Source: Cladopsammia gracilis (Eukaryota; Cnidaria; Anthozoa; Scleractinia; Dendrophylliidae). Taken from it: a DNA stretch of 64,000 nucleotides. A program made the position numbers and the translations under genes. How positions within the stretch are numbered: position 1 is the first letter of the stretch; every line of letters begins with the position of its first letter. This document shows, piece after piece, positions 20,043 through 47,193 of this stretch. The stretch covers positions 1,261,501 to 1,325,500 of the forward strand of contig JAJGOT010000003.1 in the NCBI GenBank assembly GCA_022457155.1, read 5' to 3'. The notes beneath the pieces were generated by a model, which searched no databases, was not told where the DNA came from, and saw only the letters and a list, made by a program, of their open reading frames with translations.

Positions 20043-20092
20043 TCGATAAAATCTGGCGATGGCAACTCTCTCAAAAAATCACACTGAAAATT

Positions 20093-23812: not shown

Positions 23813-23853
23813 TTTGAATGAAAAAAGAAAAAATATTTTTTCTCCATTCAAAA

Positions 23854-24342: not shown

Positions 24343-24366
24343 ATTTTTTCTTCATTGGAGAAAAAA

Positions 24367-24552: not shown

Positions 24553-24577
24553 TTTATTTTTTATCTCCTCCCAAAAA

Positions 24578-25201: not shown

Positions 25202-26188
25202 TCTCACTGAGATCTGGAGGAAACTCCAAATTATTTTCCAGAATCTGATTCTGAAAAATACTTTTGTGATTTTTTTCAGTGAATTTGGGCAGAACCTTTT
25301 TCCTGATTTTTTCAGATTTGCCACGTGTGGTAGGTCTGATTTTGCCCCAGATTTTTTCAGTTCATTTTGGGCAGATTTTCCACGCACGATCGGTTGATTT
25401 TTTCCCAAATCCGCTCCGGGAAGAATTTGGTATTCGGTTTCGGGAAAATAAATTCTGAATCCCCAGAAAATAATTTGCGGAATCCAACTCCGGGGAAAAA
25501 ATTCTGAAATCCACTCCGGGGAAAAAAATACTGAAATCCACTCCGGGGAAAAAATTCTGAAATCCACTCCGGAAAATAATTTTTGAAATCTGAATTCTGA
25601 AATCCACTCCGGGGAAAAAATTCTGAAATCTGCTCCGGAAAATAATTTTTGAATTCTGAATCCTCAGAATTTGATTTGCGGAATCCAACTCCGGGAAGAA
25701 TTTTTTTTTGACTCCGGGAAAAATATTTTTTGCTGAACTTGAAATTTCTCCGGAAACTGATTTTGGAATGAAATTTCTCTCCGGAAAATATTTCTCCAAA
25801 ATTATTTTGAGGAAAATTTTTTTCCAAAATAATTTTGAATGAAATCAATTTCCGGGGGATGAAAAAATTCTCCGGGATGAAAAATTTTCTCCAAAATGGA
25901 TTTCAGAACGAAAAATTACCCACAAAAACTGATTTTGGAATGAAAAATCTCTCCAAAAACGGATTTTGGGATGAAAAATCTCTCCGGAATTAAAATATCT
26001 CTCCGGGAATAAAAAATCTTTCGCTGAAAATCAGCTTTTAATTCAAATTCAGGAAAATTCAGGAAAATTTCTGCTTCATTTCATCTAAATCCTAGTTAAC
26101 TAAATTGGAGAAATAACTGGCTAAAATGGGGAAATAAATGGATAAAATGTGATTTTAATTTTTTATTTCCTTTTTTTATCTAAATAAA
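25202..26188. repeat. Degenerate tandem repeat tract inside the Polinton
   Basis: About 1 kb without a convincing gene. From about 25400 to 25850 it is built from degenerate units of the type TGAAATCCACTCCGGGGAAA, 18-30 bp apart. It grades into ctccggaa/ctccaaaa-gatttt variants up to about 26000. Frames across it read as repetitive F-P-G/S-x-F peptides on the minus strand and have no start in a good context. It could be a recombination-prone spacer, an origin or a packaging-related tract. It separates the replication-side genes from the second HTH gene. Confidence 0.6.
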
Positions 26189-26788
26189 ATGTCGAAGCCA
26201 GCAACTAAACATTTTTCAATCTCCGACGGGAAAAAAACCAAAACCTTCTTCTCCGTGAATTCGGCAGCGAAAGAATATAGCATTTCAAATTGCGCCATCA
26301 CCAATGCATTGAAAAAAGGAAACTCATCCATCACCCGGAGATCGGATAAGAAAATATTTTATCTCAGAGAACCAAAAGTGGAAGAACCAAAAGTGGAAGG
26401 ATCAGATTCTCCCCAGATAGATTTTTCTTCACTCCCAATGGATGAGGAATGGTTTGACAAATTCAAGGTCGCCTTTTCATCCCTGGATGATTTTTGCAGA
26501 CAGATTGTTAATAAATTATTTGCGGATGAAGATCTCAAATTTGATTGGAAAAAAAGGGAAATTATCTACAATGAGGAAAGTGTTTCATTTATTGAAATCA
26601 TCTCCATTATCTGCAGAGTGGCATTTCCGATTAACAAAGAGCGTTGTTTAGCAGAACTGGAGAAGGATTTTTCTGTTGGAACTAAAAAACCTCTTTACAT
26701 GAAACGAATGAAATTCGTTGCCTGTTTGAATAAAAATGAAAGAACATTTCACGTTGATATCTTCAATAAAATCAGGAAATATAAATGA
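26189..26788 (+). CDS. Small HTH-like protein 2
   Basis: 199 residues. The N-terminal 50 residues (FFSVNSAAKEYSISNCAITN, then ITRRSDKKIFYL) resemble the NUMOD1-like module of the 23854-24342 protein, in particular FF-x4-A-x5-S and R-x-DxK-x-F. A small repeat EEPKVE-EPKVE and a helical C-terminal domain without recognised motif follow. Likely DNA-binding by similarity of the module; the role is unknown. It is preceded by AT-rich DNA with TAAATAAAATG at the start. Confidence 0.7.
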   Translation: MSKPATKHFSISDGKKTKTFFSVNSAAKEYSISNCAITNALKKGNSSITRRSDKKIFYLREPKVEEPKVEGSDSPQIDFSSLPMDEEWFDKFKVAFSSLDDFCRQIVNKLFADEDLKFDWKKREIIYNEESVSFIEIISIICRVAFPINKERCLAELEKDFSVGTKKPLYMKRMKFVACLNKNERTFHVDIFNKIRKYK

Positions 26789-26845
26789 ATTTTTTCCTCT
26801 GATTTCTTGCATGATTTTTCATTTTCGGGAAATGAAAATTCTCGT

Positions 26846-27391
26846 TCAACCCTCAAATTTTTTCTCCCATTCAGCTTCAAACTTTTCCAAATCCAACCCC
26901 AAATCAATCACAATCCCATCAATCGCTTCCATTGAAAACAAAAATTCAGCTTGATCAAAATTTCCTCCCCGCAAAGCGAAGCGCAAATCACTCAATGTTT
27001 TTTCATAGGTGGTGAAAGCGAATTTCGCCATCTTAATTTTGCTTTTCAGATTCTTCATTTCATTCGCGGTTTTCAAAACTAATCCTGCTCCTGAAATCAC
27101 TCCCAACACGATTGGATTCATTGTTGTTGCCCCAGCAATCGTCCCGATTGCAACCAGGCCGGAAGAGGTTAAATTTATGAGCAGATTCATTTTCTTGAAT
27201 CGACCATGCGCTCGTTTCAAACACCAAAATCTTTTGTGATAAAATCGATAAAGTTTTTTGATCTCTTCCAGTTCTTCTTCCCGAATTGCGGGGTTGATGT
27301 GATTGAAATTGAAGATGTTTTGTTTTCGCGCTCGCTTCACTCGGCTCGGCTCGCTTCGCTCGCTCCCTTCGATCGCTTCTCTCGCTCTCAT
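26846..27391 (-). CDS. Small protein with hydrophobic Gly/Ala helix pair
   Basis: 181 residues from ATG 27391, which lies 4 bp after the stop of the fibre gene. A basic N-terminus includes a SERSE-type tract encoded by a gcttcgctcg repeat. A long charged helix is followed by a hydrophobic hairpin (GLVAIGTIAGATTMNPIVLG and GVISGAGLVL) and another coiled region (LKSKIKMAKFAFTTYEKTLS). This suggests a membrane-inserting or helix-bundle protein. No family name can be given from sequence alone. It is the last gene of the minus-strand ATPase-fibre block. Confidence 0.7.
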   Translation of the reverse strand: MRAREAIEGSERSEPSRVKRARKQNIFNFNHINPAIREEELEEIKKLYRFYHKRFWCLKRAHGRFKKMNLLINLTSSGLVAIGTIAGATTMNPIVLGVISGAGLVLKTANEMKNLKSKIKMAKFAFTTYEKTLSDLRFALRGGNFDQAEFLFSMEAIDGIVIDLGLDLEKFEAEWEKKFEG

Positions 27392-27395
27392 TTTT

Positions 27396-29186
27396 CTAGA
27401 TAATTTCAAAAAGAAATGTGATTTGGGCCTGGCCAATATTTAATGTTCGATCATCTATTCTTGCTGTAAATAATTCTCCTTCCTTATAAACAACATTTGA
27501 AAAAGAAAATAATTGAATTCTATTATCTCTGCTAACCCTCGTTCCACTTTGTGATTCTTTATCTGGGAGATATAAACTTAGTTGTGGAAAAGAAGATGTT
27601 TTCGATAAAATTTGAGAAAACGCTTTAATTAATTTACATCGAATGGGGATGACTATATCATTGAAAAAATTATCAAAAAGTATATTTATGGCGTCTCCAG
27701 ATGATTTTCTAAATCTTCCAATCAGCATGAAATTATTCTTCAAATTTGAATTGAGCAATTTGTGGCCATTCAAATCCAAGTCAGTCTCCATGACCATCTT
27801 CCCCGCTTGGAAAACGAAAGGGGAATCGAAGACGCTGCTTGCAACATCAGGTTGGGAACCAGCAATGCCATATATGATCAGATTTGCATTTCCTTTTTCA
27901 GCGGACTCGGCAGTGCCTCGCCATTTCAAATCCAGGAAAATAAATTCAGGTGGAGTGATCTTCCATTTATGCATATGGATAATGGATCTGGAATACCCCG
28001 AAAACTTCTTAGTTGATTGTTGATTGATATTCAGACTGGCGCTCACAACGTTGACGCTCACACCATCCATTGACGCGGGGAAGAATTCAATACAAATCGT
28101 GTATTCTCCCTCTGGGAGTTTGAACATATTGAATCCAAGTCTCCCATCGTATTCATTGAAATGATCTTTTGTTATTTTCAAGTCATAAGCCTTCTTGTTG
28201 AAATGATGCGGTGAATTTGAAAAATCAGTTATGCCAGTTACTTCCATATCATGTTCAGAGCTGGATTCATCCACATTTTCCATCAGATAGCGGAATGCGT
28301 CCTTTGGGTGAGAGGTTGACGTGATATGCGATTCATTGACATATTCTTTAAGTTTCTCTTCTAATTCCATCGTGTGGGCTACCACACCTCCTATCTTGCC
28401 ATCCACATAAGATTTTGACGTGGGTTGATGCTTCAGAGTTGGCGCTGCGATATTGTTTATTTGTTGCGAGTTCATATCCAGGTTTCCGGTCATTGTTCCG
28501 CCTTCCAACGAAAGCTTTTTCGCGGATTGGGCATCCACATATCGCATATTTGCGCCCTGATCGGCAACTTCGGGATCTTTCACGTTAAAAATGGTGTGAT
28601 TTCCCATATCCAAAGCCGTCTCCATTGGAAACGTCTCTTTGCGGCTGAGAAAGATATTTTTGATGTCATTATAAGAAACCAGGTTGTTGTATGCGGCTCC
28701 CAAATCATGCCATGTTTGTTGTTTTGAGTTTTTCACGTTGAAAAGCCCTTTCAAATCCAGGTCCTTCGTGACTTCATGAGTTGGTTCAGGAGCATTGGGG
28801 TGGAATTTTTTCAGAGTGACCATATTCACCGCTGACAAATCCTGGTTTTCATCAGTGTCCAGATTGACGATCAATTTGCGATTCATTTCTATTTCCCCGG
28901 GGTTGATGAGTTTTTGTCCCCTGAGATCAAGATCCCCAGTCATATGGGAAGACCCATCCACCTGGAGAGAATCTGCTCGCAATTGCGTTGCAAGCGTGTC
29001 AACTTGGTGCTTTGTGATTGCATCCGAATTCCCCGTTCCTTCAGCGATATTGGTTATTTTTTTGTTTTGAAGATCGAAGTCTCCTGCGGGAGTCAGCTTG
29101 AAACCAACTCCTGGCAATCCATCTTTTCCATCTTTTCCTCCCTGGAAGTTGCTTGTTTCAGACAGCAATCCATTTGAATAACTCAT
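27396..29186 (-). CDS. Fibre-like protein with phage tail-fibre and collagen-like repeats
   Basis: 596 residues from ATG 29186, one base after the ATPase stop codon. The N-terminus has a short collagen-like run (GGKDGKDGLPG, 16-26). Repeats with the wording of phage tail fibres follow: GDFDLQNKKITNIAEGTGNS, HMTGDLDLRGQKLINPG and MTGNLDMNSQQINNIAAP, with SKSYVDG after the last. The C-terminal half has beta-rich segments (YTICIEFFPASMDGVSVNVV) that may form a jelly-roll head. In phages such repeats make trimeric beta-helical shafts. I infer a trimeric vertex fibre for host recognition on the virion. Long frames on the opposite strand are shadows. Confidence 0.8.
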   Translation of the reverse strand: MSYSNGLLSETSNFQGGKDGKDGLPGVGFKLTPAGDFDLQNKKITNIAEGTGNSDAITKHQVDTLATQLRADSLQVDGSSHMTGDLDLRGQKLINPGEIEMNRKLIVNLDTDENQDLSAVNMVTLKKFHPNAPEPTHEVTKDLDLKGLFNVKNSKQQTWHDLGAAYNNLVSYNDIKNIFLSRKETFPMETALDMGNHTIFNVKDPEVADQGANMRYVDAQSAKKLSLEGGTMTGNLDMNSQQINNIAAPTLKHQPTSKSYVDGKIGGVVAHTMELEEKLKEYVNESHITSTSHPKDAFRYLMENVDESSSEHDMEVTGITDFSNSPHHFNKKAYDLKITKDHFNEYDGRLGFNMFKLPEGEYTICIEFFPASMDGVSVNVVSASLNINQQSTKKFSGYSRSIIHMHKWKITPPEFIFLDLKWRGTAESAEKGNANLIIYGIAGSQPDVASSVFDSPFVFQAGKMVMETDLDLNGHKLLNSNLKNNFMLIGRFRKSSGDAINILFDNFFNDIVIPIRCKLIKAFSQILSKTSSFPQLSLYLPDKESQSGTRVSRDNRIQLFSFSNVVYKEGELFTARIDDRTLNIGQAQITFLFEII

Positions 29187-29187
29187 T

Positions 29188-29835
29188 TTAAAACCTTTCA
29201 TCAAAATTTTTGGCAATGAATTTCCTCGGCTTATCCACATACAGGAAAGAGAACGGATCATGCGTTGCTTTACGATAATCTTCTTTGCTGACTTGTGTCT
29301 CCCGGCAGAGAAGAGAAACTTCATTGTTGCTGGGGAATTCAAAAATGCAAAAATGTGAGCAATTCAAACGGATATCTTTGGGTGTTTGGAAATAACTTTG
29401 TGAAAGATAAATCACGGAACAATTCTTATGCCTACCCTGAATGAAATAATCAATCAATGGCTTTTGGTTCTTTTCAGAAACAAAATCATCAAAAACAACC
29501 AGCTTTTGATTATCCCCTGACAATTCAGAAACTGGGATGATTTCATCCGGGGATGCTTCCACGACGTCATACCCAGCTTCTTTGCTGATTGGGCGAAACG
29601 TTTTCAGCAGATGCTGATATTTGGTTTGGTCAAGATTTTTCGCATAGAGGAAGATTTTATCGTAGAAGAGCAGGCGGAAAATCATATCCAGGAGAACATT
29701 TGTTTTCCCCGATCCTGAAGGGCCACAGATCAACATTCTGAAAGTTCGATCCGGCATGAACGGGTGAAGTTGTTTGAAATTTGTGATTGGATCCTGACAA
29801 TCATAATTTGGGATTTTCATTTTATTAATGAACAT
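29188..29835 (-). CDS. A32-like (FtsK/HerA) genome-packaging ATPase
   Basis: 215 residues from ATG 29835; ATG 29820 is an alternative. It powers DNA translocation into the capsid. Walker A is GPSGSGKT (38-45) and Walker B is KLVVFDD with D116/D117. A sensor-type segment (VIYLSQSYFQTPKDIRLNCS) follows at about 150, as in the A32/Polinton family. Length is normal for the family. It is first of three minus-strand genes (ATPase, fibre, hydrophobic protein) packed with 1- and 4-bp gaps, which suggests one transcript, and it is divergent from the PPxY gene. Confidence 0.95.
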   Translation of the reverse strand: MFINKMKIPNYDCQDPITNFKQLHPFMPDRTFRMLICGPSGSGKTNVLLDMIFRLLFYDKIFLYAKNLDQTKYQHLLKTFRPISKEAGYDVVEASPDEIIPVSELSGDNQKLVVFDDFVSEKNQKPLIDYFIQGRHKNCSVIYLSQSYFQTPKDIRLNCSHFCIFEFPSNNEVSLLCRETQVSKEDYRKATHDPFSFLYVDKPRKFIAKNFDERF

Positions 29836-29869
29836 GACATTCTTCTTCTGAATATGAGACAACTTGTGA

Positions 29870-29944
29870 GATTCTGAGATTCTGAGATTCTGAGATTCTG
29901 AGATTCTGAGATTCTGAGATTCTGAGATTCTGAGATTCTGAGAT
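29870..29944. repeat. 8-bp tandem repeat between divergent virion genes
   Basis: About nine head-to-tail copies of GATTCTGA fill most of the 110 bp between the ATPase start and the ATG at 29946. This is the only place for promoters of two divergent late blocks, so it is a candidate bidirectional regulatory repeat. Confidence 0.75.
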
Positions 29945-29945
29945 T

Positions 29946-30956
29946 ATGATTCTTAATAAAATGAGTTTATTGAAATGGCAAGAAATTGCTAAAAGCAAAT
30001 CTGCTTTGGGTAAAAAAATCAACTTTGTTCATGATACCATCACCCAGAAAAAGTTGGGTGAAGAGACAAGCCAAATCGGGTTTGAAAAAATGTTCAAACC
30101 CATAACAGCAAAATTAAATGATGTTATTGTATCGAATTTGAAACCCCCTCCAAGACTTAGGAAAAAGAAAGTCATTGAAGAAAAACCAGGCGTTGATTAT
30201 TATCCAGACGTAGATCCATTTGAAGAAATGGATGTTGAAGGTTTATTTGATGCTGATGAGGCGGCTGTTGCACCGCAAGCAGCTAAACAACTTCCAGAAA
30301 GACCGCCAACATATGAAGAAGTATTGGCAGAGTTAGAAGATGAACCATCTATATATGAAGAGGGCGTTCCTGATTATGCTATAAAAGAAGAAGAGGAAGA
30401 AGCGGAAGCGGGAGACGAGGAAGACGCTCAAGAAGACGCAGTTAATAACATGCTAGATAACATGGGTTTATCAAATTATGACACAACGGAGAAAGTCTTA
30501 GCTCAGCCAAATGTTTCGGTAGAAAAGAAAAAAAATTTCATTGAAAACAGAATTATCAAGCCGGCTTTAAAAAAAAGAGACCAACTGAACAGCCGCATCA
30601 GCTATCAGAATAAAAAATTCAAAAACGGTGAAATAACGGCAGATGCATTGGCTGTGGCAGTGAAGCCAATAAAGGCTAACAGAAAAGTATTGAATGACTA
30701 CATGAAATATTATAGAGGGAAACTTAAGTCATCTAAAGGATCGGGTGTCAGCAGAAGGGGTGGATCCATCCGTTTTTTCTCCAATCCCGCAGATCTCCTC
30801 CAGAAACTTGAGGTCATCGTTGGCTCCATTCTTGCTGGGAATACGAATTCGGACATCAGAAACACTGGAGTTGGCATTCTCGATCTTCTCCTGAAAGAAA
30901 ACGTCATCAATCGTTCCCAGCATGAGATGCTTTTCAGAAAGTATTTCAAACTCTAA
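29946..30956 (+). CDS. Virion-associated-type protein with PPxY late motif
   Basis: 336 residues; ATG 29946, or ATG 29961. A basic N-terminus is followed by a proline- and acid-rich linker containing PPTY (120-123) in the setting ERPPTYEEVL, then long Glu/Asp runs. A coiled segment and a Ser/Gly-rich stretch with RRGGS come next. The C-terminal helical domain is LLQKLEVIVGSILAGNTNSD and following. PPxY recruits Nedd4-type ubiquitin ligases and is found in adenovirus protein VI and retroviral Gag. It heads the plus-strand capsid block and its stop is one base from the penton start. I do not recognise the overall family; minor capsid or scaffold is inference. Confidence 0.7.
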   Translation: MILNKMSLLKWQEIAKSKSALGKKINFVHDTITQKKLGEETSQIGFEKMFKPITAKLNDVIVSNLKPPPRLRKKKVIEEKPGVDYYPDVDPFEEMDVEGLFDADEAAVAPQAAKQLPERPPTYEEVLAELEDEPSIYEEGVPDYAIKEEEEEAEAGDEEDAQEDAVNNMLDNMGLSNYDTTEKVLAQPNVSVEKKKNFIENRIIKPALKKRDQLNSRISYQNKKFKNGEITADALAVAVKPIKANRKVLNDYMKYYRGKLKSSKGSGVSRRGGSIRFFSNPADLLQKLEVIVGSILAGNTNSDIRNTGVGILDLLLKENVINRSQHEMLFRKYFKL

Positions 30957-30957
30957 A

Positions 30958-31722
30958 ATGGAAATCGAAAGAGAAATTGTCCTATCATCCTTTTCCGTCA
31001 AGACTGGGGGAAACAAACCAGAAAATTTCACAACAAAATTCAATCGGCCCATTATTTTGGATCCAAATTCCCAATATGTTGTTGGGTTGAACAGAATTAT
31101 CAATATGAGTTTTACGTGGTATAACATCAATGCGGCATTGAAAAATCAGCTGATTAGATTCAGCTCTGACGGTGGGAAAACATTTTCCGATATCACCTTT
31201 CCTGCTGGGGTTTGGGATTATTCCACTTTGAATGCGGCAATTCGAAACGCAACAGGCCCCCTCGCAGGAAAGAATGAAAAATTCCCAATCAATCTTACTT
31301 TCTCTCCCACAACTTTCAGAACGACAATCACGCTGGAAGAAAACTGGCAACTTGATCTCGAGAAATCCAACTTTGGCGATCTCATTGGTTTCGATAAAAA
31401 GATTCTGAAAGACAAAGTCAACATTGGCCCCAGAGTTCCAAACCTCAGCCAAGATACTGATATGTTGAACGTTCATTGCGATCTCACAAGTGATTCGCTT
31501 GTGGATGGGGAAGAGAGCGATATCATCTTCTCCTTTTCAACATCTGTTCTGCAGGCCTCCTATAGTTTCACTTTGGAACCCATGAGAGTGATGTTCAGCC
31601 CTGTGAATAAAAACAGAATAAGCTCCATTCGGATTTATATCACCGATGGGAAAAGGCGGATTGTTGATTTGAATGGAGCTGATACAGCATTCTCGCTTAT
31701 CTTGAAAAAACAAATAAAATGA
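30958..31722 (+). CDS. Penton (minor capsid protein, single jelly roll)
   Basis: 254 residues. Features typical of the Polinton penton: FTTKFNRPIIL near the start, MSFTWYNIN, FPAGVWDYSTLNAAI, LDLEKSNFGDLIGFDKKIL, the strong MLNVHCDLTSDSLVDGEESD block and a terminal IYITDGKRRIVDLNGADTAF. In the family it forms the pentameric vertices. It starts one base after the PPxY gene and overlaps the next gene by 4 nt (ATGA at 31719-31722), which points to termination-reinitiation or shared transcripts. Confidence 0.93.
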   Translation: MEIEREIVLSSFSVKTGGNKPENFTTKFNRPIILDPNSQYVVGLNRIINMSFTWYNINAALKNQLIRFSSDGGKTFSDITFPAGVWDYSTLNAAIRNATGPLAGKNEKFPINLTFSPTTFRTTITLEENWQLDLEKSNFGDLIGFDKKILKDKVNIGPRVPNLSQDTDMLNVHCDLTSDSLVDGEESDIIFSFSTSVLQASYSFTLEPMRVMFSPVNKNRISSIRIYITDGKRRIVDLNGADTAFSLILKKQIK

Positions 31723-32093
31723 AAAGTTATGAATTCTCTCGTTTTTTCCACCCCCAGCTGGGGCGGTTTGTCTTCCGGCATAAAGGAACAGGTGTCATTG
31801 TGGACAATATTTTCAAACCAATGAGGAAGGTCGCATCAGTCGTCTTCAATAAATTCGCGAAACCCATTGCGAAAAAAGCCTTGGAATCAGGAATTTCTCA
31901 CGCTGGGGATAAACTCGGCAAAAAAGCAGTTGAAAAATCTGGTGATTTGATCATGAAAAAACTGGGAAATATGAGAAGGAAACCCTCCTCCAAAAAAGCT
32001 GCTGCTGCTCCTCCTCGACCGAAGGGAGAAAGTTCTGATGCCATATTGAACAGGTTGATCTCTGGGCAAGGAATTCGAAAAAGAAAAAAATGA
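31719..32093 (+). CDS. Small basic virion-type protein
   Basis: 124 residues, very rich in Lys/Arg, with an Ala/Pro linker (KKAAAAPPRPKG). An adenain-type cleavage consensus, ISGQ|G (114-118), lies just before a terminal RKRKK. Size, charge and a protease site recall adenovirus core proteins, so a DNA-condensing or capsid-cement role is inferred. It overlaps the penton gene by ATGA and precedes the major capsid gene by 6 bp. No membrane segment. Confidence 0.75.
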   Translation: MKSYEFSRFFHPQLGRFVFRHKGTGVIVDNIFKPMRKVASVVFNKFAKPIAKKALESGISHAGDKLGKKAVEKSGDLIMKKLGNMRRKPSSKKAAAAPPRPKGESSDAILNRLISGQGIRKRKK

Positions 32094-32099
32094 TTTAAA

Positions 32100-33380
32100 A
32101 TGGCTTTTCGATCGAATGAATATCTTCAAAGAAATGAATTAGTGCGCTTCCAGCTGGATGATACAATCCGAGCTCCAGCTAATGCTCAACACCAACAAAA
32201 AAGTGGTTATAAATTCACGATTAATGACCGATCCGCATTCTATGATTGGTATAATGCGTATTTCGAGGTGCAGTTTCAACTCCAGAAAATAGCAGACGGC
32301 GCTGGGTATGCCGCAGCTGACAGAATCACAGTGATCAATGGCGCTCATTCCCTGATTAATCACCTGAAGATTAGTTCTGCTGGAAAGATTGTTTATGAGA
32401 CTGATAATCTGCATAACGTTACTTTTATTAAAAATTTGCTAGAATACTCCGATGACTTCAGCAGATCAGTCGCCAAGAACAGTTTCTGGTATTTGGATAC
32501 TGATGCAACAACCGCTAATACGAATGCAGGATTTGAAGCTCGCAGGATACAATCTCAAGCAGTGCAAAACAATGGAAACGGTGGTGCAAAGAACATTAAC
32601 GTCATCATTCCCCTGAATCGCTTTTCCTTTTTCGAAGAGTTGGAGGATAAGATGCTTGTGCCCATGCAGCTGCAATTTGAGATTAAGCTTCAACAGGATA
32701 ATGAATTAATTCATATGGCTAATGGCACTGATGCTGGAAGAGTTGTCGTGAATAGGTTTTTGCTTTGGGTCCCCAGATTGACACCCAAAGATTCTCTTTA
32801 TGACAAATTTGTCAGTTCATTCCTGAAAGAAACACAATGGAAATATCTGAGGGAGATGTATTCCGAATCAGCTCCTACGCAGTCATCAGGATTCTTCCAG
32901 ATATCCGCATCCATTGACAATGTTAAGCATATTTTTGTTTATCTTAAAAGAACCAATGATGACGCTAAAGAAGAAGATAGCCCTTATCTCATGAACACTT
33001 TCCAGCTGAATGCGGACAATGAAAACTCATCCTTGTCGAACTGCCGGCTGGAATATGGAAACGGAGTTTTCTACCCGGAAACAGAGTATGACAGTGAAAG
33101 CAAAGTGAGGATTTTCCAGGATGTCATGAGTTATGCAATGAGGAAAAATGATTTCAACACAGGGACACAGCTGAATCTGGCCAATTTCAATTCTCTTTTC
33201 CCGTTGATCTATTTCGATCTGACTTATCAAACTGAAAAACCAACAAGAGATCCCAAGCAGTTGATATTCAGGTATCGATTGAACGCAGATGCAGAGGCAA
33301 ACTTCAATATACATGCCATTGTTCTCTATGAAGACATGGTGAAAATCGATAAGATTGGAAATGAGCTGGTGATCGTGTGA
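32100..33380 (+). CDS. Major capsid protein (double jelly roll)
   Basis: 426 residues, within the usual Polinton range. The start MAFRSNEYLQRNELVRFQLD, the VINGAHSLINHLKISSAGK segment, the IPLNRFSFFEELEDKMLVPM block at the end of the first jelly roll and the LIFRYRLNADAEANFNIHAI block near the C-terminus are the pattern of the Polinton/adintovirus capsomer. It forms pseudo-hexameric trimers of an icosahedral capsid. The gene sits between the small basic protein and the membrane-active-type protein and has no frameshift. Confidence 0.95.
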   Translation: MAFRSNEYLQRNELVRFQLDDTIRAPANAQHQQKSGYKFTINDRSAFYDWYNAYFEVQFQLQKIADGAGYAAADRITVINGAHSLINHLKISSAGKIVYETDNLHNVTFIKNLLEYSDDFSRSVAKNSFWYLDTDATTANTNAGFEARRIQSQAVQNNGNGGAKNINVIIPLNRFSFFEELEDKMLVPMQLQFEIKLQQDNELIHMANGTDAGRVVVNRFLLWVPRLTPKDSLYDKFVSSFLKETQWKYLREMYSESAPTQSSGFFQISASIDNVKHIFVYLKRTNDDAKEEDSPYLMNTFQLNADNENSSLSNCRLEYGNGVFYPETEYDSESKVRIFQDVMSYAMRKNDFNTGTQLNLANFNSLFPLIYFDLTYQTEKPTRDPKQLIFRYRLNADAEANFNIHAIVLYEDMVKIDKIGNELVIV

Positions 33381-33420
33381 TCTGTGAAGCGAAAAAAAAA
33401 AACATATCTTGTCATTTAAA

Positions 33421-34254
33421 ATGACAACATATCACCCATATAAAGTAAATCTGTCGGAAGGGCAAAAAAGCAAGCTGGGAAAAGCATTCCGAACAAACAA
33501 TCCTGTCACCCTGAGATTGGGTAGCAAACAAACAAGCGGAAATGATGAACTGATGCTCACGGCAAATCAAATAAAACGGATTGGAAAAGCCGCATCTCAG
33601 GGAAAGGGAGCTGAGATCAAAATCTCGAAAACGCAAATCCGAAAAGTGATGAAGCAAGGCGGAAGTCTTTTCTCTGCTATTGTTCCCCTGGCTCGTTCCC
33701 TGGCACCCACCCTGGCAAAGACACTTGGACTGTCAGCATTGGCTGGTTTGGCGAGTGAAGGAGCGAGTCAAGTTGTGAAAAAAATAAGCGGGAAAGGAGC
33801 AGGGCAAGTGGGCGGATTTCTCATTCCCCAATCCAAAATTCAGAAACTGATTGACAATAAACATCTGTTGACAAATAAACAGAAACAGGATATTTTGTCT
33901 GCCCTGAATTCAGGAGGACAGTTGGTGATGAAACCATCCGCAAAACAATCTGGTGGGGCATTGGGAACAATTCTGGCTTCCATTGGAATTCCACTGGCAC
34001 TTGACATGGTAAAAAACATGTTTGGAAAAGGAGCACCAAGAGTTGGTCGCCCCAAAGGAAAGGGAGCGCAGCGACCGCGACTGAAAGGAGAAGGTGCACC
34101 AAGATTGGGGGCGCATCCGTTTCAACCTCCCCCATTCATCGGAACCTGGGGACGAAAAATTGGGATGGGAAAAAAATCCAAAAAAGGAACGGGACTTCTG
34201 CTGGGGGAAAAAAGTCCATTCAACAACATCCCAATTCTCGGGGCAATATTGTGA
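33421..34254 (+). CDS. Adenovirus pVI/pX-like virion protein with protease sites
   Basis: 277 residues from ATG 33421. The N-terminal 80 residues end in MKQGGS. Two hydrophobic amphipathic stretches follow (SLFSAIVPLARSLAPTLAKT at about 82-101; LGTILASIGIPLALDMVKNM at 181-200), with Gly/Lys-rich linkers between. Three adenain-type sites are visible: ISGK|G (122-126), MFGK|G (200-204) and LKGE|G (221-225). Amphipathic helices released by a viral protease are the hallmark of membrane-lytic cement proteins such as pVI, so I infer that role. The stop overlaps the protease start by 4 nt. Confidence 0.75.
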   Translation: MTTYHPYKVNLSEGQKSKLGKAFRTNNPVTLRLGSKQTSGNDELMLTANQIKRIGKAASQGKGAEIKISKTQIRKVMKQGGSLFSAIVPLARSLAPTLAKTLGLSALAGLASEGASQVVKKISGKGAGQVGGFLIPQSKIQKLIDNKHLLTNKQKQDILSALNSGGQLVMKPSAKQSGGALGTILASIGIPLALDMVKNMFGKGAPRVGRPKGKGAQRPRLKGEGAPRLGAHPFQPPPFIGTWGRKIGMGKKSKKGTGLLLGEKSPFNNIPILGAIL

Positions 34255-34694
34255 GCAAAGCGAAACCCAAATTCGTGAACAAACCCCTGAGCAACCTTGA
34301 TCTTCTCCAGTGGATTGATTTTCTGAAAATTCCCAATTTCAAAGGGATTTTCGCCAGGGATGAAGCGAGGCCCCGAGAACACAGCCCCTGCATCATCAAT
34401 CTTGATTCACTTGAAAATGCTGGAACTCACTGGGTGTGCTGCGCTCCGGGGAAAAAATTCACGTGGTATTTCGACTCTTTTGGGATGGGATTTCCCCAGG
34501 AATTCAAAAGTTCCAAACCAGTGATTTGGAACAGCAGTCAGTATCAAAACATCAACAGTGTCCTTTGCGGGTATTATTGCCTTTATTTCCTCCATCAATG
34601 GTCGCAGGGGAAAGATTTCTATGATATTCTCAAACCTTTCAGTCTGACTGACTCGGGGGAGAATGAAAGATTCATAAAAGAATATTTCGATTGA
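34251..34694 (+). CDS. Adenain-like cysteine protease
   Basis: 147 residues with the adenain/Ulp1 triad in order: H60 in GTHWVCC, D75 in YFDSFGM, Q99 of the oxyanion hole and C106 in NSVLCGYYC. It matures virion precursors; sites of its type occur in the two neighbouring proteins. The start is odd: the only in-frame start before the catalytic His is GTG at 34251, which overlaps the upstream stop (GTGA). The frame is also open further upstream, in the -1 frame of the preceding gene. Options are reinitiation at GTG, an ATG-to-GTG change, or expression by frameshift, for which I see no standard slippery heptamer. Confidence 0.92.
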   Translation: MSKAKPKFVNKPLSNLDLLQWIDFLKIPNFKGIFARDEARPREHSPCIINLDSLENAGTHWVCCAPGKKFTWYFDSFGMGFPQEFKSSKPVIWNSSQYQNINSVLCGYYCLYFLHQWSQGKDFYDILKPFSLTDSGENERFIKEYFD

Positions 34695-34696
34695 AA

Positions 34697-34849
34697 ATGA
34701 AGTCATATTGCGTGAAAGAGAAAAAACAAACTGAATGCGTGCAACCATCTGGATATATGACTGCGAAAAATGGCAGAAAAATGTGGTTTTGCCATTGCGC
34801 TTCCTGCGGAATCAAGAAAACAAGATTTGTGAAAAGTTCGGGAAACTGA
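34697..34849 (+). CDS. Zinc-ribbon N-terminal module (frame 1 of three)
   Basis: A 50-residue frame that starts 2 bp after the protease stop. Cysteines at 5, 14, 32, 34 and 37 (CHCASCGIKKTRFV) make a small zinc-ribbon-like module. The stop TGA directly follows a G GGA AAC slippery heptamer (34840-34846), and a hairpin begins 7 nt later. Most ribosomes would release this short protein; those that slip -1 enter the PLA2 frame. Without the frameshift, the PLA2 frame would need to start at the second ATG (34735) by leaky scanning. Confidence 0.75.
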   Translation: MKSYCVKEKKQTECVQPSGYMTAKNGRKMWFCHCASCGIKKTRFVKSSGN

Positions 34850-34872
34850 GTCTGCCCCCACAAGGTGGGGGC
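34840..34872 (+). promoter_or_regulatory. -1 frameshift signal 1 (zinc ribbon to PLA2)
   Basis: G GGA AAC at 34840-34846 is in the zero-frame register of the zinc-ribbon frame, with the zero-frame stop immediately after. There is a 7-nt spacer, then an 8-bp perfect GC-rich stem, GCCCCCAC (34854-34861) with GTGGGGGC (34865-34872), and a 3-nt loop. The same heptamer serves the gag frameshift of several retroviruses. A -1 shift continues at 34846 into the PLA2 frame, open to 35541. Confidence 0.75.
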
Positions 34873-35541
34873 GAAGCGAAGCGAGCCGCGGAGCGAAGCG
34901 GAGCTGGCATAGGTGAACTTGCGCTGACTGGCGTGGCTCATGCGCTGCCTTGGATTGGGAAGAAGACTGTTGAAATGGGCCGTTATGGAGCTAGTGAATT
35001 ATTGCGAAACAAAAACACTCAGAAAAAAGCATTGGATTTTGCGTTGGACAAGATGAAACCATTTCTTGCCAAAACCTCTGCTGATATGATGAATGAGCTG
35101 TCCACGGCGATCCGACCAAACAGAAAATATAAAACAGATCGAGCAGATTTGGATGGGGGTGCTTTAGATGTTCATTCCCTGATTGGGAAGCTGCCAAGAC
35201 CAAAGAAAGGTTTCACCCTCCCAGGGCATAATTATACCGGCCCCTGGAACCCACTCGAAAAACAAGTCCGATTCGATGAAAAGGGAAAAATTCTCGAAAT
35301 CTGGCAGCAGCCCACAGGAAAAACAGACGCAGTTGCTATGCAGCACGATGTGGATTATTCAGTCTGCGCAAAGAAAGCGGATCCGCGCAAATGCAAGAAC
35401 GAAGCAGACAGGAAAATGGTTGCCGCTTTGGATGCCATTCCCTGGAAAGAAAGACAGTGGGGTCATGCTTTGGCGAGAAACACAATTCAAGCAAAACAAA
35501 AACTTGGTCTCGGCGCTCCAAAAAACGGGAAAAGATTTTGA
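34846..35541 (+). CDS. PLA2-like domain (frame 2 of three)
   Basis: About 231 residues if entered by the -1 shift; the frame is open from 34735. A repeat-derived linker (GEAKRAAERSG, encoded by gcgaagcg units) and a helical region precede a parvovirus-type phospholipase A2-like core. The Ca-loop-like PGHNYTGPWNPLE is at about 35221-35260 and the catalytic-type QHDVDYS at 35341-35361, with His codon 35344-35346 and Asp 35347-35349. Cysteines and a second helix follow. In parvoviruses this fold opens the endosomal membrane during entry; that role here is inference. The frame ends in TGA at 35539-35541, just after A AAA AAC. Confidence 0.85.
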   Translation: MSLPPQGGGEAKRAAERSGAGIGELALTGVAHALPWIGKKTVEMGRYGASELLRNKNTQKKALDFALDKMKPFLAKTSADMMNELSTAIRPNRKYKTDRADLDGGALDVHSLIGKLPRPKKGFTLPGHNYTGPWNPLEKQVRFDEKGKILEIWQQPTGKTDAVAMQHDVDYSVCAKKADPRKCKNEADRKMVAALDAIPWKERQWGHALARNTIQAKQKLGLGAPKNGKRF

Positions 35542-35587
35542 GTAAAGGCCAGTGGACTCAAAATCTGGCAATCGAATTACACCGGCC
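35520..35587 (+). promoter_or_regulatory. -1 frameshift signal 2 (PLA2 to integrase)
   Basis: A AAA AAC at 35520-35526 lies in the exact codon register of the PLA2 frame. A 6-nt spacer (35527-35532) precedes a perfect 11-bp stem, AGATTTTGAGT (35533-35543) with ACTCAAAATCT (35556-35566). Its loop segment 35547-35554 can pair with 35580-35587 (7 of 8 pairs) to give an H-type pseudoknot. The zero-frame stop (35539-35541) is inside the stem. A -1 shift continues at 35526 into the integrase frame. Confidence 0.85.
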
Positions 35588-36494
35588 AATCAGGCGGCGC
35601 TTTCCAAAGAGGCGAGTCATAGCATATGGGATTGACAACATCTGGGCGGCTGATTTGGTCGAGATGGGGAAATTTTCGAGGTGGAATAAAGGGATCAGAT
35701 ACCTGCTGATGGTGATCGATGTTTTCTCAAAATTCGGTTGGATTCGCCCCCTGAAAGACAAGCGAGGTCAAACAGTGGCTGATGCTTTCCGAGATATATT
35801 CAAGGGGCGAAAACCGAAAATGCTCTGGACTGACAAGGGGAGTGAATTTTTCAATGCAGTGATGAAGGATTTGCTTGATAAGAATGGGGTAAAATTGTAT
35901 ACAACGGAAAATGAAGAAAAGTCATCTGTTGTTGAGCGCTGGAACAGGTCTTTTAAGGAGAAACTCTTTAAAATGTTTAGCGTGAACAACAATACAATAT
36001 ACTGGGACAAACTTGGCAAATTACTGGATGAATATAATCATCGTTTTCATTCGAGCATTCGGATGAGTCCCGCAGAGGCGAGCAAACAGGAAAATGAGAA
36101 AAAGGTTTTCGCTAATCTTTTCGGAGATTTAATTTATGCTAAACACAACCCGGCAAAATTCAAAGTCGGCGACAGGGTGAGAATTTCAAAGTTTAAACGA
36201 AAGATATTTGACAAAGGTTACACGTCGAATTGGACAGAGGAGATATTTGTGATTGACGAAATAAAGAACACAAACCCTGTAACGTATAAATTAGTTGATC
36301 TGTTGGGAGAATCAATCACTGGATCATTTTACGAGGCGGAACTTCAAAAGACAACGCAAGATGTGTTTCGAATTGAAAAAGTTATTCGCCGCGATAATAA
36401 GCGAAAACTCGCGCTTGTAAAATGGAAAAGCTATTCTGACAAATTTAATTCTTGGGTTCCATTGAGCGATGTGGAAAAACTAGCACACGGTTAA
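35526..36494 (+). CDS. Retrovirus-like integrase with chromodomain (frame 3 of three)
   Basis: 322 residues downstream of the -1 shift. The catalytic triad is D (35652-35654, in AADLVEM), D (35832-35834, in WTDKGSEF) and E (35934-35936, in VVERWNRS), giving D,D-x33-E. An SH3-like C-terminal segment (FKVGDRVRISKFKRKIFDKG) and a chromodomain (VFRIEKVI..LALVKWKSYSDKFNSWVP) follow. It inserts the element and makes the 6-bp duplication. The frame itself contains an ATG at 35391, but residues before the shift point look unrelated to any integrase and overlap the PLA2 core. Expression as a PLA2-integrase fusion therefore explains the layout better than internal initiation. Confidence 0.93.
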   Translation, partial: REKILSKGQWTQNLAIELHRPIRRRFPKRRVIAYGIDNIWAADLVEMGKFSRWNKGIRYLLMVIDVFSKFGWIRPLKDKRGQTVADAFRDIFKGRKPKMLWTDKGSEFFNAVMKDLLDKNGVKLYTTENEEKSSVVERWNRSFKEKLFKMFSVNNNTIYWDKLGKLLDEYNHRFHSSIRMSPAEASKQENEKKVFANLFGDLIYAKHNPAKFKVGDRVRISKFKRKIFDKGYTSNWTEEIFVIDEIKNTNPVTYKLVDLLGESITGSFYEAELQKTTQDVFRIEKVIRRDNKRKLALVKWKSYSDKFNSWVPLSDVEKLAHG

Positions 36495-36795
36495 TAGTTT
36501 ATTGAAAAGTTTTAATGATATGCGGCCACAGCGTAGCCTAATTATATATGTATTTTCACATACAAACAGAAGTACATGTACAAACGAAAGTTTATGAACA
36601 AATACATGAAAATACATAAAAAATGAAAGCATCTGATTGGTTGAGGTAAATCATACGACATTTCCTTTATCACCTTCTAGCACGTTGTAGACATGTGACA
36701 TATGATGCAATACCATCTGGCGATTTATTGCGTGGGCGTATCAGAATATAAATGTTTTACATTAATATTCACAGTCTGTTATTTCAAAACACCGC
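36495..36795. other. Intergenic, between convergent Polinton genes
   Basis: About 300 AT-rich bases between the integrase stop and the stop of the acidic protein gene. No gene or clear polyadenylation signal is recognised. It contains a loose repeat of acatacaaa/tacatg-type sequence at about 36550-36620. Confidence 0.4.
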
Positions 36796-37191
36796 TTAGC
36801 ATCGCTTTCGTTTCGCGCCGGGACTCGCTTCGCTCGTTTCGCTTGACCCGTTTTGCTTCGCTTGGCTTTCGTTCATTTCCCGGTGGATTTCCCAGAGAAG
36901 ACCGCTTTGCTTTTGGAGTTCCTTTTTGAGAATCTTGTGTTCCTCCTGGAGATTGACAAAAGATTCAAAAAGGAGTTCAATTGAGTCTTCGATTTCGTCG
37001 CTTCGCTCAGCTTCCGCCATCTCCGAGTCAGACACAATAAATTCCTCGTCTGAAGTGGTGGGAGTTTCATCGTCGCTTCTTGTTTCTTCCTCTGAGCATG
37101 TTTCACAATTTTCATGGTCACTGGCACTGAGGCTCCCTCCGGTCGCTTCGCTTCGCTCGGCTTCATTGGAAATTTTTTTTTCAAGATCCAT
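36796..37191 (-). CDS. Acidic coiled-coil protein, unknown function
   Basis: 131 residues from ATG 37191. The first half is acidic and Ser/Thr-rich (ETCSEEETRSDDETPTTSDE), then comes a predicted coiled coil (LLFESFVNLQEEHKILKKEL) and a short basic end (AKRKRC). Three short tracts (NEAERSEA, EAERSDE, SETSEAS) are encoded by gcttcgctcg-type repeats. The start lies within the 3' end of the VLTF3-like gene (11-nt overlap), so the two are probably co-expressed. No family recognised; an early regulatory or assembly role would be a guess. Confidence 0.6.
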   Translation of the reverse strand: MDLEKKISNEAERSEATGGSLSASDHENCETCSEEETRSDDETPTTSDEEFIVSDSEMAEAERSDEIEDSIELLFESFVNLQEEHKILKKELQKQSGLLWEIHREMNESQAKQNGSSETSEASPGAKRKRC

Positions 37192-37738
37192 TTTCTTTCC
37201 AATCACATTTTTTGAAGATTGTTTGGATTATTTTTTCTTGTTCCGCCCGTCTGGATGGAAGTTTGAGCAGTTTGAAATCATCTTCATTGGGATTGAAACC
37301 ATTCTTCTGCAACAGGGCGAAAAGAACTTGGTGGCAATTGAGAAACTTTTTCCTGTTGAGATGAAGATCGTCATATGCTAGGGAAAAATATTTGAAATCG
37401 TCGATGAGATATTTCTCCAGATGTTCATAATCATTTCCGTCGTGACCTGTTATGTGATTAAAAATTGCATGATCGTTGCCACTGACTTTTTTCCATTTAG
37501 AAGCTTTGACGAAATCCCTGACTTTTTTTCTTGTGATTTCGTCACGGGGAATTTGGGAGAGAATTTGTTCTTGATAAAATTCGAGATCTTTGAGTGGAAT
37601 TTGATTTTTCCCCTGATTTTTGCGGATGACAACTTTGAAATGTTCCAGCCTGGGATTTTTGTGAGATTGCCATGTTGTGTGGGTTTCCTGAACGAGTTCA
37701 GGAATGAAATCGATTTCTTCTTCTTCAGAATCAGACAT
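37181..37738 (-). CDS. VLTF3-like late transcription factor
   Basis: 185 residues. After an acidic start (MSDSEEEEIDFIPEL), the body resembles the poxvirus A2/VLTF3 family. A conserved-type region (HAIFNHITGHDGNDYEHLEKYL) is followed by the C-terminal signature LNRKKFLNCHQVLFALLQ, then FKLLKLPS and a terminal KIIQTIFKKCDW. In large DNA viruses this factor activates late promoters; here it would switch on the virion blocks. The family match is by recognition of this C-terminal pattern, not by a search. It is the rightmost gene, about 120 bp from the terminal repeat, and runs inward. Confidence 0.65.
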   Translation of the reverse strand: MSDSEEEEIDFIPELVQETHTTWQSHKNPRLEHFKVVIRKNQGKNQIPLKDLEFYQEQILSQIPRDEITRKKVRDFVKASKWKKVSGNDHAIFNHITGHDGNDYEHLEKYLIDDFKYFSLAYDDLHLNRKKFLNCHQVLFALLQKNGFNPNEDDFKLLKLPSRRAEQEKIIQTIFKKCDWKENGS

Positions 37739-37857
37739 TTTCTTGCCGGAGAGAGATTTTTCCCCCTTTGGGAAAAAATTCCACCCAGATTTTCCCAGAG
37801 TGGAATTTTTTTTTTTTTTGCCATCGCCGGCGACAGAATTTTCCTGAAGTCATCCAG

Positions 37858-37914
37858 AGTGAAATATTCTAAAATGGTATGTTTTTTTGTGGTCAATATG
37901 AGGGGAAAAAAAAT
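37858..37914. repeat. Inner terminal inverted repeat, right
   Basis: Inverse of 19986-20042, directly inside the right 351-bp unit. Together they prove the element's terminal symmetry. Confidence 0.9.
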
Positions 37915-38265
37915 AGTAGATATAGAAGAAGGGTTCTGGCACACTTTCAAAATCGTAACAAGTTAACACAAAACAGAAATTGACGTCAGTTGACGTTCAA
38001 TTTAGCAATACATGAGATGATTGATTTTCTGCTCGTTCGCATACGTAAAACAAAAACAAGTCAATTAACATGTGTTATGTTAAATTTAACAAAATGGGGA
38101 GGAATTTGATTTTTAATATTTTACGTTCGCGAACGAACAGAAAATTGGGGAACGACAATCATTTTTTGTTGTTGTTGAATTTAACATAAAATAAAATAAA
38201 ATTCTGTTTTGTGTTAATTTGCTACGATTTTGAAAGTGTGCCAGAACCCTTCTTCTATATCTACT
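37915..38265. repeat. Right 351-bp terminal palindromic unit
   Basis: No difference from 19635-19985 was seen on reading both line by line, and it is in the same orientation rather than inverted. Because the unit is itself palindromic at its ends, the element still terminates ...CTATATCTACT. Confidence 0.9.
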
Positions 38266-38271
38266 AACTCA
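38266..38271. repeat. Polinton target-site duplication, right
   Basis: AACTCA, matching 19629-19634. The flank continues gtgcagtaaatacg, as in the unoccupied paralogs. Confidence 0.95.
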
Positions 38272-45018: not shown

Positions 45019-47193
45019 ATGGAATCTCTATTGAAAAACCTAAAAGAACACGTAACATGTTCGATTTGTTTGGATACGTTCACCGAGCCCAAGACAATCG
45101 CCTGCCTCCACACATTCTGCTGCGAATGTTTGAAGAAACACGCTTTAACAACCCAGCGACAAGGTCAATTTCGCTGCCCCGAGTGCCAAGCACAAGTTGG
45201 CGTCCCTGAAAGCTTTGATCGACTGCCCACTGGTTTTCTCCAGAATAGACTGCTCGGAGTTCTCGCCGTACAACAAAGTGGCGATGGAAGTGAGATCAGT
45301 TGCGGAAACTGCAGAAAAAAGAGCGCTGGGGCGAGCTTCTGTTTCAACTGCGGAATATTCATGTGCCCAGACTGTGTAAATGCACATGAATTACTGAGAA
45401 ACATCGCTTTTGACGGCCACAAAGTCAGACCAATTAAACACTTTCAAGCAGAAGACTACGAAGCTTTGTTAAAACGGCAGTCGTCTTGTTCTCAACAGTA
45501 CCACGAGCGAGAGGTAGCGAGATTTTTTTGCCTTGAGTGTCAAACTTGTGTTTGTCAGGTTTGCGTGGTCATGGATCACAGGAATCATGCTGTTGATCCA
45601 CTTGACAAGGCAGCTGATCGCGAGAAAACCCAAATCATGACGGGAACCGAGTTGATGAAAGAAAAAAACAAAATTTTCAGCGATGTGGTACGCGAATTTG
45701 AGCAAACGGTTCTTAATCTGGAAACTAACATCGCCACCGCTAAACACGAAGTTTCCCAAGTGGCCGAGCAAATGATCACGAAGATTCGAGAACGCGAGCG
45801 GGAGGCCATTTCCGCACTCGAGATGACGCGCGTGTCGAGAACTGAGAAATTAAACTCTGTGAAGATATATGTGCAGTCCTTGGTCAAGCAAATCAATCAA
45901 GCAATCGAGTTCGCCGACAATCTGGTTCAAAGAAGCTCCAGCTTAGATATTTTGCAAAGCAAGAAGTCGTTGGAGCAGCGATTTGAAGATTTTAACAAGA
46001 CTCCAGTCCCATCACTTCCGGTTACTTCCTTTGTGAAGTTTATCTCTACTTCTGAACCAGAGAATTTGACCCTCGGTTTAACCAGTGAACCAGTTGTAGA
46101 AGGTCTAACTCAAGATTTCCAAGCCGGTGTAGAAGCAGAATTAAACATCTATCCAAAACTGACGAGTGAAGTTCAACAGAAAATTCGCGTTGACGTTCTC
46201 GTGGAACCCGCTGAAAAAGTAGGAAGTTTGATGATTACTGAAAAAGAAGATGGAAATCTCCTGGTGAAGTTTACACCTAAATTGCCAGACACTTACAAAA
46301 TTGAAGTGACTTTAAACGTTGGTAATCTTCATCAGAGTATTTTCACTGGACATGTCCAGGTAAAGGAACGACGGCTTGAAGTTGTGGGAGAGTTGGATTT
46401 GAAAGGAGAAACTCTTCATAATCCATATGGGATTGCTGTGAACAGTGAAGGGCTGATCGCTGTAATTGACTGCAACGGTCACTGTATCCTGTTATTCGAT
46501 AAAGAAGGAAAGTGTCTGCGAAAATTTGGCTGCAAAGGAAATAATGTTGGGCAACTTAACTATCCAACTGATGTAACATTTGTCAATGACAGCGTGATTC
46601 TAGTGGTAGATGAGTTAAACAACCGCATTCAGCAGTTTAATGTTAACTCTGGGGAAGTTGTGAAAGCTTTTGGAAGGAAAGGGACTGGAGAAGGCGAGCT
46701 TCAGAATCCAATGGGAGTTTGTATGGATGGCGAAGGACGCGTTGTTGTAGCAGACTGCAAAAACAACAGAATACAGGTTTTCACAAAGGATGGTGAACCT
46801 GTGTTTAGTTTTGGAGCAAGTGGATCTGGAAAACTTAACCGCCCCAATGGATGTACTTTTCACGAAAACATGTTCATTGTTTCTGACGGTCATAACCACT
46901 GCTTAAAAATCTTTGACAATTCAGGGAAGTTGCTGCGTAAGATTGGAGAACAAGGCAAAGGCGACGGACAGTTGGATTGGCTTGGGGGTGTGTGCGTTGA
47001 AGAAAATGGCAACCATCACAACATTCTTGTTTGTGACCGTAACAATCAAAGGATTGTACAGTTTACAATGGAAGGTTCATTCACTGGAAAAACTGTTACT
47101 AATCTTCCACGACCTGTTGGAATAGCTACAACACTAGACAAAAGGATTTTGGTATCCGATTATAGAGCGAAAAAAATATATATCCTACAATAA
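45019..47193 (+). CDS. TRIM2/3/71-type RING E3 ligase with NHL repeats (copy 4)
   Basis: 724 residues, intronless, with the same domain order as copy 2: RING, two B-boxes, coiled coil, filamin domain and NHL propeller. All RING cysteines and the histidine are kept. Differences from copy 2 cluster in the NHL blades (for example VIDCNGHCILLFDKEGKCLR), a short deletion in the linker before the filamin domain and a two-residue insertion (NLHQS) within it. The surface of the propeller has changed more than the catalytic half, which would fit diversification of target binding. AATAAA overlaps the stop codon. Confidence 0.95.
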   Translation: MESLLKNLKEHVTCSICLDTFTEPKTIACLHTFCCECLKKHALTTQRQGQFRCPECQAQVGVPESFDRLPTGFLQNRLLGVLAVQQSGDGSEISCGNCRKKSAGASFCFNCGIFMCPDCVNAHELLRNIAFDGHKVRPIKHFQAEDYEALLKRQSSCSQQYHEREVARFFCLECQTCVCQVCVVMDHRNHAVDPLDKAADREKTQIMTGTELMKEKNKIFSDVVREFEQTVLNLETNIATAKHEVSQVAEQMITKIREREREAISALEMTRVSRTEKLNSVKIYVQSLVKQINQAIEFADNLVQRSSSLDILQSKKSLEQRFEDFNKTPVPSLPVTSFVKFISTSEPENLTLGLTSEPVVEGLTQDFQAGVEAELNIYPKLTSEVQQKIRVDVLVEPAEKVGSLMITEKEDGNLLVKFTPKLPDTYKIEVTLNVGNLHQSIFTGHVQVKERRLEVVGELDLKGETLHNPYGIAVNSEGLIAVIDCNGHCILLFDKEGKCLRKFGCKGNNVGQLNYPTDVTFVNDSVILVVDELNNRIQQFNVNSGEVVKAFGRKGTGEGELQNPMGVCMDGEGRVVVADCKNNRIQVFTKDGEPVFSFGASGSGKLNRPNGCTFHENMFIVSDGHNHCLKIFDNSGKLLRKIGEQGKGDGQLDWLGGVCVEENGNHHNILVCDRNNQRIVQFTMEGSFTGKTVTNLPRPVGIATTLDKRILVSDYRAKKIYILQ

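Follow-up and report, generated by a model that had tools for sequence, protein, structure and literature searches.

In retroviruses, gag-pro-pol expression is driven by slippery heptamers of the form X XXY YYZ that are set at a short spacing from a downstream structure. Mouse mammary tumour virus passes through two such -1 frameshifts in its gag-pro-pol region, and the gag-pro heptamer is A AAA AAC. To our knowledge, it is in retroviruses and their kin that two stacked -1 frameshifts leading to a terminal integrase have been described. Polintons/Mavericks and adintoviruses carry a type B DNA polymerase (PolB), an rve integrase with a chromodomain, a packaging ATPase, an adenain-like protease and terminal repeats, and the portions of the three papers available to us describe no frameshift between these genes (PMC4028283, PMC8097293, PMC11071296). 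A slippery sequence is suggested there only for adintovirus penton ORFs, towards their 3' ends (PMC11071296, a preprint), and a PLA2 domain is marked in the Figure 1 legend of a further report (PMC3671162). Literature searches, by title and abstract opening, turned up no report of frameshifting between zinc ribbon, PLA2 and integrase genes; PMC10120064 and PMC6875170 were also consulted.

The locus described here shares with the retroviral arrangement of mouse mammary tumour virus two stacked candidate -1 shifts, heptamers of the form X XXY YYZ, a structure 6-7 nt downstream and an integrase in last position. Unlike retroviral gag-pro-pol, it belongs to a DNA element with PolB and a packaging ATPase, and a PLA2 domain occupies the middle. 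We consider it very probable, judging from the sequence comparisons below, that this Polinton uses two consecutive -1 ribosomal frameshifts on one mRNA to make a nested set of proteins from zinc ribbon, PLA2 and integrase. Such a two-frameshift layout is likely to be new for DNA elements of this type.

The window, by which we mean the whole stretch of 64,000 nt that was analysed, contains the element and the following genes on its minus strand:

19635-38265, strand not assigned: Polinton/Maverick-like element of 18.6 kb, with terminal inverted repeats and a target duplication
20093-23848, minus strand: PolB, a type B (protein-primed) DNA polymerase (PF03175, E 2e-26)
29188-29862, minus strand: packaging ATPase, A32-type (PF04665, E 1.1e-14)
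37181-37738, minus strand: VLTF3-like late transcription factor, within the element (PF04947, E 1.2e-19)

A target duplication of six bases is the rule in Polintons/Mavericks. Here the bases AACTCA stand at 19629-19634 and again at 38266-38271, and the element between them starts with AGTAGA and finishes with TCTACT, within inverted terminal repeats. Together with the type B polymerase, the rve integrase and the packaging ATPase, these termini are the Polinton/Maverick hallmarks that were found. Pfam matches on the plus strand comprise a weak adenain-like protease, DUF5679, PLA2 and the rve-chromodomain integrase. PolB, the integrase with chromodomain, the ATPase and the terminal repeats are shared with Polintons/Mavericks and adintoviruses alike, and the candidate protease would be a further shared feature. 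The match to the adenain-like cysteine protease (PF00770, E 0.0093) lies below the family cut-off, and no capsid family was among the Pfam matches of the scanned ORFs, a result that concerns sequence profiles only. An assignment to the adintoviruses was dropped because the PolB has no N-terminal OTU-like domain, with Pfam at E 0.1 giving only DNA_pol_B_2 and Endonuclease_7; an integrase of the adintovirus type, with a C-terminal chromodomain (PF00385, E 1.8e-06), is present.

Several further features of the element and its surroundings were observed. Each end (19635-19985 and 37914-38266) folds back on itself, as an arm of 94-95 nt recurs inverted 163 nt further inward. The sequence AGCGAAGCG occurs eight times inside the element and nowhere else in the window, and two ORFs of 724 residues flank the element, one encoding a RING, B-box and NHL protein (14341-16515) and the other of equal length (45019-47193). 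The protease frame also lies -1 to the ORF before it (33388-34254 and 34251-34694), which makes a third border of this kind. None of the 28 copies read offers an AUG in this frame up to its start; about 80 nt further upstream there is an A run, and in one copy (L147) the protease frame has a stop just before that run. Entry into this frame may be by a shift, by a non-AUG start or by re-initiation.

The three frames at the centre of this report, with their signals, are arranged as follows:

34697-34849, plus strand: zinc-ribbon frame, 50 residues, zero frame of border 1 (DUF5679, PF18930, E 1.6e-07, above cut-off)
34840-34846, plus strand: slip site 1, G GGA AAC, in the correct codon register, with TGA immediately after
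34854-34872, plus strand: stem-loop 1, 8 bp (34854-34861 with 34865-34872), spacer of 7 nt from slip site 1
34846-35541, plus strand: PLA2 frame, predicted entry at slip site 1, PLA2 domain about 35206-35496 (PF08398, E 4e-09)
35520-35526, plus strand: slip site 2, A AAA AAC, in the correct codon register, zero-frame TGA at 35539-35541
35533-35566, plus strand: stem-loop 2, 11 bp (35533-35543 with 35556-35566), spacer of 6 nt from slip site 2
35547-35587, plus strand: possible pseudoknot of loop 2, GGCC 35547-35550 with GGCC 35584-35587, at chance level in the window
35526-36494, plus strand: integrase frame, predicted entry at slip site 2, rve core about 35640-35906 (PF00665, E 2.4e-10), chromodomain about 36372-36479 (PF00385, E 1.8e-06)

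The zinc-ribbon frame begins with ATG at 34697 and closes with TGA at 34847-34849, the PLA2 frame runs open until TGA at 35539-35541, and each of the three frames is -1 relative to the preceding one. The zero-frame stops start 0 nt past slip site 1 and 12 nt past slip site 2. Direct reading of the coordinates thereby bears out what the original prediction had claimed of the overlapping frames, the two heptamers in codon register, the spacers of 7 and 6 nt, the stems of 8 and 11 bp and the stops at or just past each slip site; its product sizes of 50, 281 and 599 residues agree with arithmetic from the coordinates. Above the Pfam cut-off the three frames match DUF5679, PLA2, rve and chromodomain, and no reverse transcriptase is among their matches. 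GC-rich inserts of the GCGAAGCGAAGCGAGCC type, in frame within coding stretches (34876-34911 and others), are missing from other copies.

Taken on its own, the window makes a moderate case for frameshifting, and is merely suggestive because heptamers of this form are common in it: 1042 occur on both strands in any phase, of which 72 precede a stem of at least 7 bp in a loose scan. The 34-nt stretch of stem 1 folds with z -3.34, a value that 1 of 200 shuffles equals. For stem 2 (74-nt stretch, z -1.47, 17 of 200 as good) the advantage over shuffles is weak, and its counterpart in one other copy, L122, is no better than shuffles (z -0.88, 40 of 200).

It is the comparison of copies that raises the case above chance. 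The host genome that was searched (878 Mb) holds many copies of the element, with 125 integrase matches scored from 4859 first-look candidates; all comparison DNA consists of copies within this one genome, and near copies are not independent of each other. At border 1, 108 of 140 loci yielded the zinc-ribbon frame together with its stop, and in 94 of these 108 a phased X XXY YYZ heptamer stands immediately 5' of the stop (93 GGGAAAC and one TTTAAAC, in L111). Many distant copies have a stop in the PLA2 frame just 5' of slip site 1 (QICQK*GKL); in 28 of the 94 that stop is no more than two codons away from the site. The 14 of 108 without a phased heptamer-stop fall into several kinds. Two have GTCAAAC (L035, L050), and in three the zinc ribbon continues into PLA2 in a single frame (L098, L099, L100). 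The site is altered or decayed, or the stop lies elsewhere, in L046, L056, L061, L062, L080, L110, L112, L116 and L119; among these, L046 and L056 carry GGGAAACTGA at the homologous place with the zinc frame out of step with GGGAAACTGA, and L062 has TTTAAAC there with a later stop.

At border 2, likewise read in 108 loci (L001-L080, L098-L100, L121-L140 and L148-L152, the last taken in as likely kin of L080), a phased heptamer is found in 107: 99 AAAAAAC, 6 GGGAAAC (L080, L148-L152) and 2 AAAAAAA (L130, L131). The 99 comprise 96 scored by script and three read separately (L075, L077, L125). The heptamers at both borders thus change type (GGGAAAC/TTTAAAC at the first, AAAAAAC/GGGAAAC/AAAAAAA at the second) and keep the X XXY YYZ form. 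Fusions of PLA2 and integrase in a single frame do occur. In L010 the heptamer is intact and one extra base follows it, and among three loci taken in on account of their long frames, an additional A stands at the heptamer of L141 and L143, and L142 keeps the heptamer and is fused through another change. A codon table and codon counts near the heptamers were left unused as evidence, since their rows had been chosen for the heptamer, which is invariant there by construction; the table shows only variation of the neighbours, and the counts only expected codon use, for which eight stretches of element genes served as yardstick (AAC 34% of Asn, GGA 53% of Gly, AAA 74% of Lys).

The downstream structures were aligned by clade. 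Alignment A4 holds 29 of 38 border-1 haplotypes; those omitted (L023, L031, L032, L033, L058, L068, L093, L095, L117) mostly duplicate the first 34 letters of retained rows, and L117 has one 3'-arm G fewer. Divided by spacer length, A4 gives A5 (23 rows) and A6 (6 rows), and of 56 border-2 haplotypes 38 form A2 and 17 form A3, with L140 in neither because its piece is too short. Border-1 stems in the aligned clades have 7-8 bp and lie 6-7 nt 3' of the heptamer. In A5, with 22 distinct rows, 94.3% of cells pair, versus at most 59.1% with slid partners; 10 cells are changed on both sides, a number that 0 of 500 shuffles reach. Pair 19-29 appears as UG, CG, GC and UA and pair 21-27 as AU, CG, GC and GU, and 9 of the 22 rows do not form the eighth pair of stem 1. 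A6 is a small set of 5 distinct rows in which every position pairs and a single pair goes from C-G to A-U, a result that 63 of 500 shuffles equal.

At border 2, the window type (A2, 38 rows) is 90.2% paired versus at most 45.2% when slid, with 15 cells in which both partners have changed (a count that none of 500 shuffles attains) and three double-change pairs (3 of 500 as high); the three outer pairs of stem 2 are missing in one row group, 12-13 of the 38. A second clade forms a different stem, which is longer: 10-14 bp, lying 7 nt 3' of the heptamer and enclosing loops of 51-66 nt. It is present in 16 of 17 copies, the exception being L074 with just 5 contiguous pairs. This stem (A3, 17 rows) pairs in 99.5% of cells versus at most 53.0% when slid, through C-G to U-A and A-U to G-C changes, and both partners have changed in 9 of its cells, again more than in any of 500 shuffles. 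The number of double-change pairs is not above shuffles in A3 (303/500) and A5 (299/500). These alignments indicate a stable structure a few nucleotides downstream of both slip sites, which by energy alone is weak at border 2 of the window. The alignment of related copies that had been proposed as a check, made here within one genome, has come out in favour of the prediction, with both phased heptamers kept and the stems covarying in A5, A3 and A2.

The possible pseudoknot fared differently. In the window it amounts to GGCC/GGCC, which 194 of 500 shuffles equal, and we rejected it there and likewise in the 28 copies with the window's loop type. Some relatives likely do form one, to judge by candidate pairings that reach 6-7 bp: TGATTGG/CCAATCA (4-9 of 500 shuffles as good), TGACTGG/CCAGTCA (1 of 500) and GGCTGG (15-60 of 500).

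Selection was measured from distinct codon changes between near copies and the window, counted without a tree, as observed versus expected ratios of non-synonymous to synonymous changes. The zinc frame is constrained (1.33 versus 4.17), and the PLA2 frame across the same zinc ribbon, before slip site 1, is not (18.5 versus 4.19). From slip site 1 to its first AUG the PLA2 frame gives 0.76 versus 2.62, with 5.8 and 20.5 in the other two frames, and it still gives 1.06 versus 3.6 immediately before slip site 2. The integrase frame has 7.1 versus 3.4 before slip site 2, with 9 stop-making changes, and 0.73 versus 3.4 after it. The frame under purifying selection switches at both slip sites. This bears on a rival reading in which the frames only overlap and ribosomes begin PLA2 and integrase each at a start codon of its own, through leaky scanning, internal entry or re-initiation. 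The window offers AUGs at 34735 in the PLA2 frame and at 35391 in the integrase frame; between the upstream PLA2-frame stop and slip site 1 an AUG is present in 61 of 94 copies, most near copies have an integrase-frame AUG 129 nt upstream of slip site 2, and a later AUG could start PLA2 alone. The stretches behind the two upstream AUGs are, however, not conserved as protein (18.5 and 7.1 versus 4.2 and 3.4, with stops arising), and in many copies the AUG is wholly absent: from 33 of the 94 at slip site 1 and, between the upstream stop and the integrase core, from 16 of 60 near copies, 16 of 19 second-clade copies and 15 of 16 further copies. As separate starts would also leave the type-switching phased heptamers and the covarying stems unexplained, we regard them as improbable.

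The frames could instead be joined at the RNA level before translation, by polymerase slippage, editing or splicing. A AAA AAC is indeed a short A run, and one that miscopying can lengthen, as the copies with an extra A (L141, L143) show. Polymerases slip poorly on GGGAAAC and TTTAAAC, yet GGGAAAC is in use at both borders and TTTAAAC at border 1, and the codon phase and the stems at fixed distance indicate ribosomes, which makes RNA-level joining very improbable. Decay of dead copies with heptamers arising by chance would be in keeping with the abundance of such heptamers in the window on both strands and in any phase, and some copies are decayed; the recurrence of the same borders in diverged clades, with each frame under purifying selection, renders this reading scarcely credible. 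The conservation of the heptamers, the stems and the pattern of selection strongly support the original prediction that zinc ribbon, PLA2 and integrase are joined by two successive -1 ribosomal frameshifts.

Protein homologues show what the shifts would produce. A search with P0011, itself a PLA2-integrase fusion, gave 2503 matches; among the 120 listed, 56 have PLA2 and integrase in a single frame, and 11 have DUF5679, PLA2 and integrase in a single frame of 550-562 residues. The single-frame proteins (P0278, P0280, P0282 and others), which are known as protein only, have the same three domains in the same order, as their junctions and Pfam matches for six of them indicate, and differ in their continuous frame, with no shift, and in the residues at the junctions. 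Relatives with the domains in one frame show that the three belong to one genuine protein, and frameshifting appears from these sequences to be one of two ways of making it. One-frame relatives had been named beforehand as evidence that would speak against frameshifting. They exist, both in the 11 of 120 listed and as rare copies in the host genome, but the present lineage retains the signals, and we rejected the reading that they refute the shift. Zinc-ribbon matches in the host genome have an open frame above 150 residues in 8 of 150 cases; of the long zinc frames fetched, L098-L101, L103 and L104 continue into PLA2, most via one extra A before the slip site.

In a separate search, the tails of the 120 PLA2 homologues listed are KN in 89, LGLGLN or similar in 27 and other in 3, with the motif absent in 1. 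At the protein level, where codons are not visible, the KN and LGLGLN-type tails would fit A AAA AAC and T TTA AAC. A search of viral contigs with the integrase, as a single protein and then as an alignment, found no relative, and the cross-species support is accordingly at the protein level. The window and its near copies have TTG where many integrase homologues begin with M (MSEGW, MSSDW); the gene caller presumably renders TTG as M, and the starting M of the homologues is hence no proof of an AUG. An LxGG motif, which we take to be an adenain-type cleavage site, precedes PLA2 in 70 of 112 homologues. Of the 120 matches listed for P0011, six are named, five from Stylophora and one from Oculina, both corals, and a cnidarian placement of the element is plausible by these matches.

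In the proposed mechanism, the majority of ribosomes would stop after the zinc ribbon of 50 residues. At G GGA AAC, with the stem-loop 7 nt downstream, some would slip by -1 and continue through PLA2 (281 residues), and at A AAA AAC, with the second structure, a fraction of the slipped ribosomes would shift a second time and go on through the integrase (599 residues). If ribosomes do slip, the products would form a graded set of 50, 281 and 599 residues. Observed are the heptamers, stems, frames and their conservation, from which we infer the slippage itself, how often it happens, the ranking of the products by amount and what becomes of them. That the frameshift ratio keeps the integrase scarce is plausible, and the view that scarcity is essential is weakened because other lineages and rare copies here (L010, L141, L142, L143) do without a shift. 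The element's own protease may trim the polyprotein, and the integrase may enter virions together with PLA2.

Altogether, these observations place a candidate two-shift integrase layout in a DNA element that encodes a type B polymerase and whose diverged copies show both heptamer switches and stem covariation. Entry of the integrase by frameshift would account for the many integrase frames that have no AUG and for homologues being predicted from inner starts. We speculate, as a tentative and rather doubtful extension, that an animal DNA virus lineage of the Polinton/adintovirus line, apart from retroviruses, evolved a gag-pro-pol-like two-shift cassette that fixes the proportions in which zinc ribbon, PLA2 and integrase are made, that the integrase would travel into the virion as the tail of a PLA2 entry protein, and that integration would start from the incoming particle. 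With frameshifting, the integrase would be physically tied to PLA2, and its presence in Polinton particles would thereby become a directly testable question.
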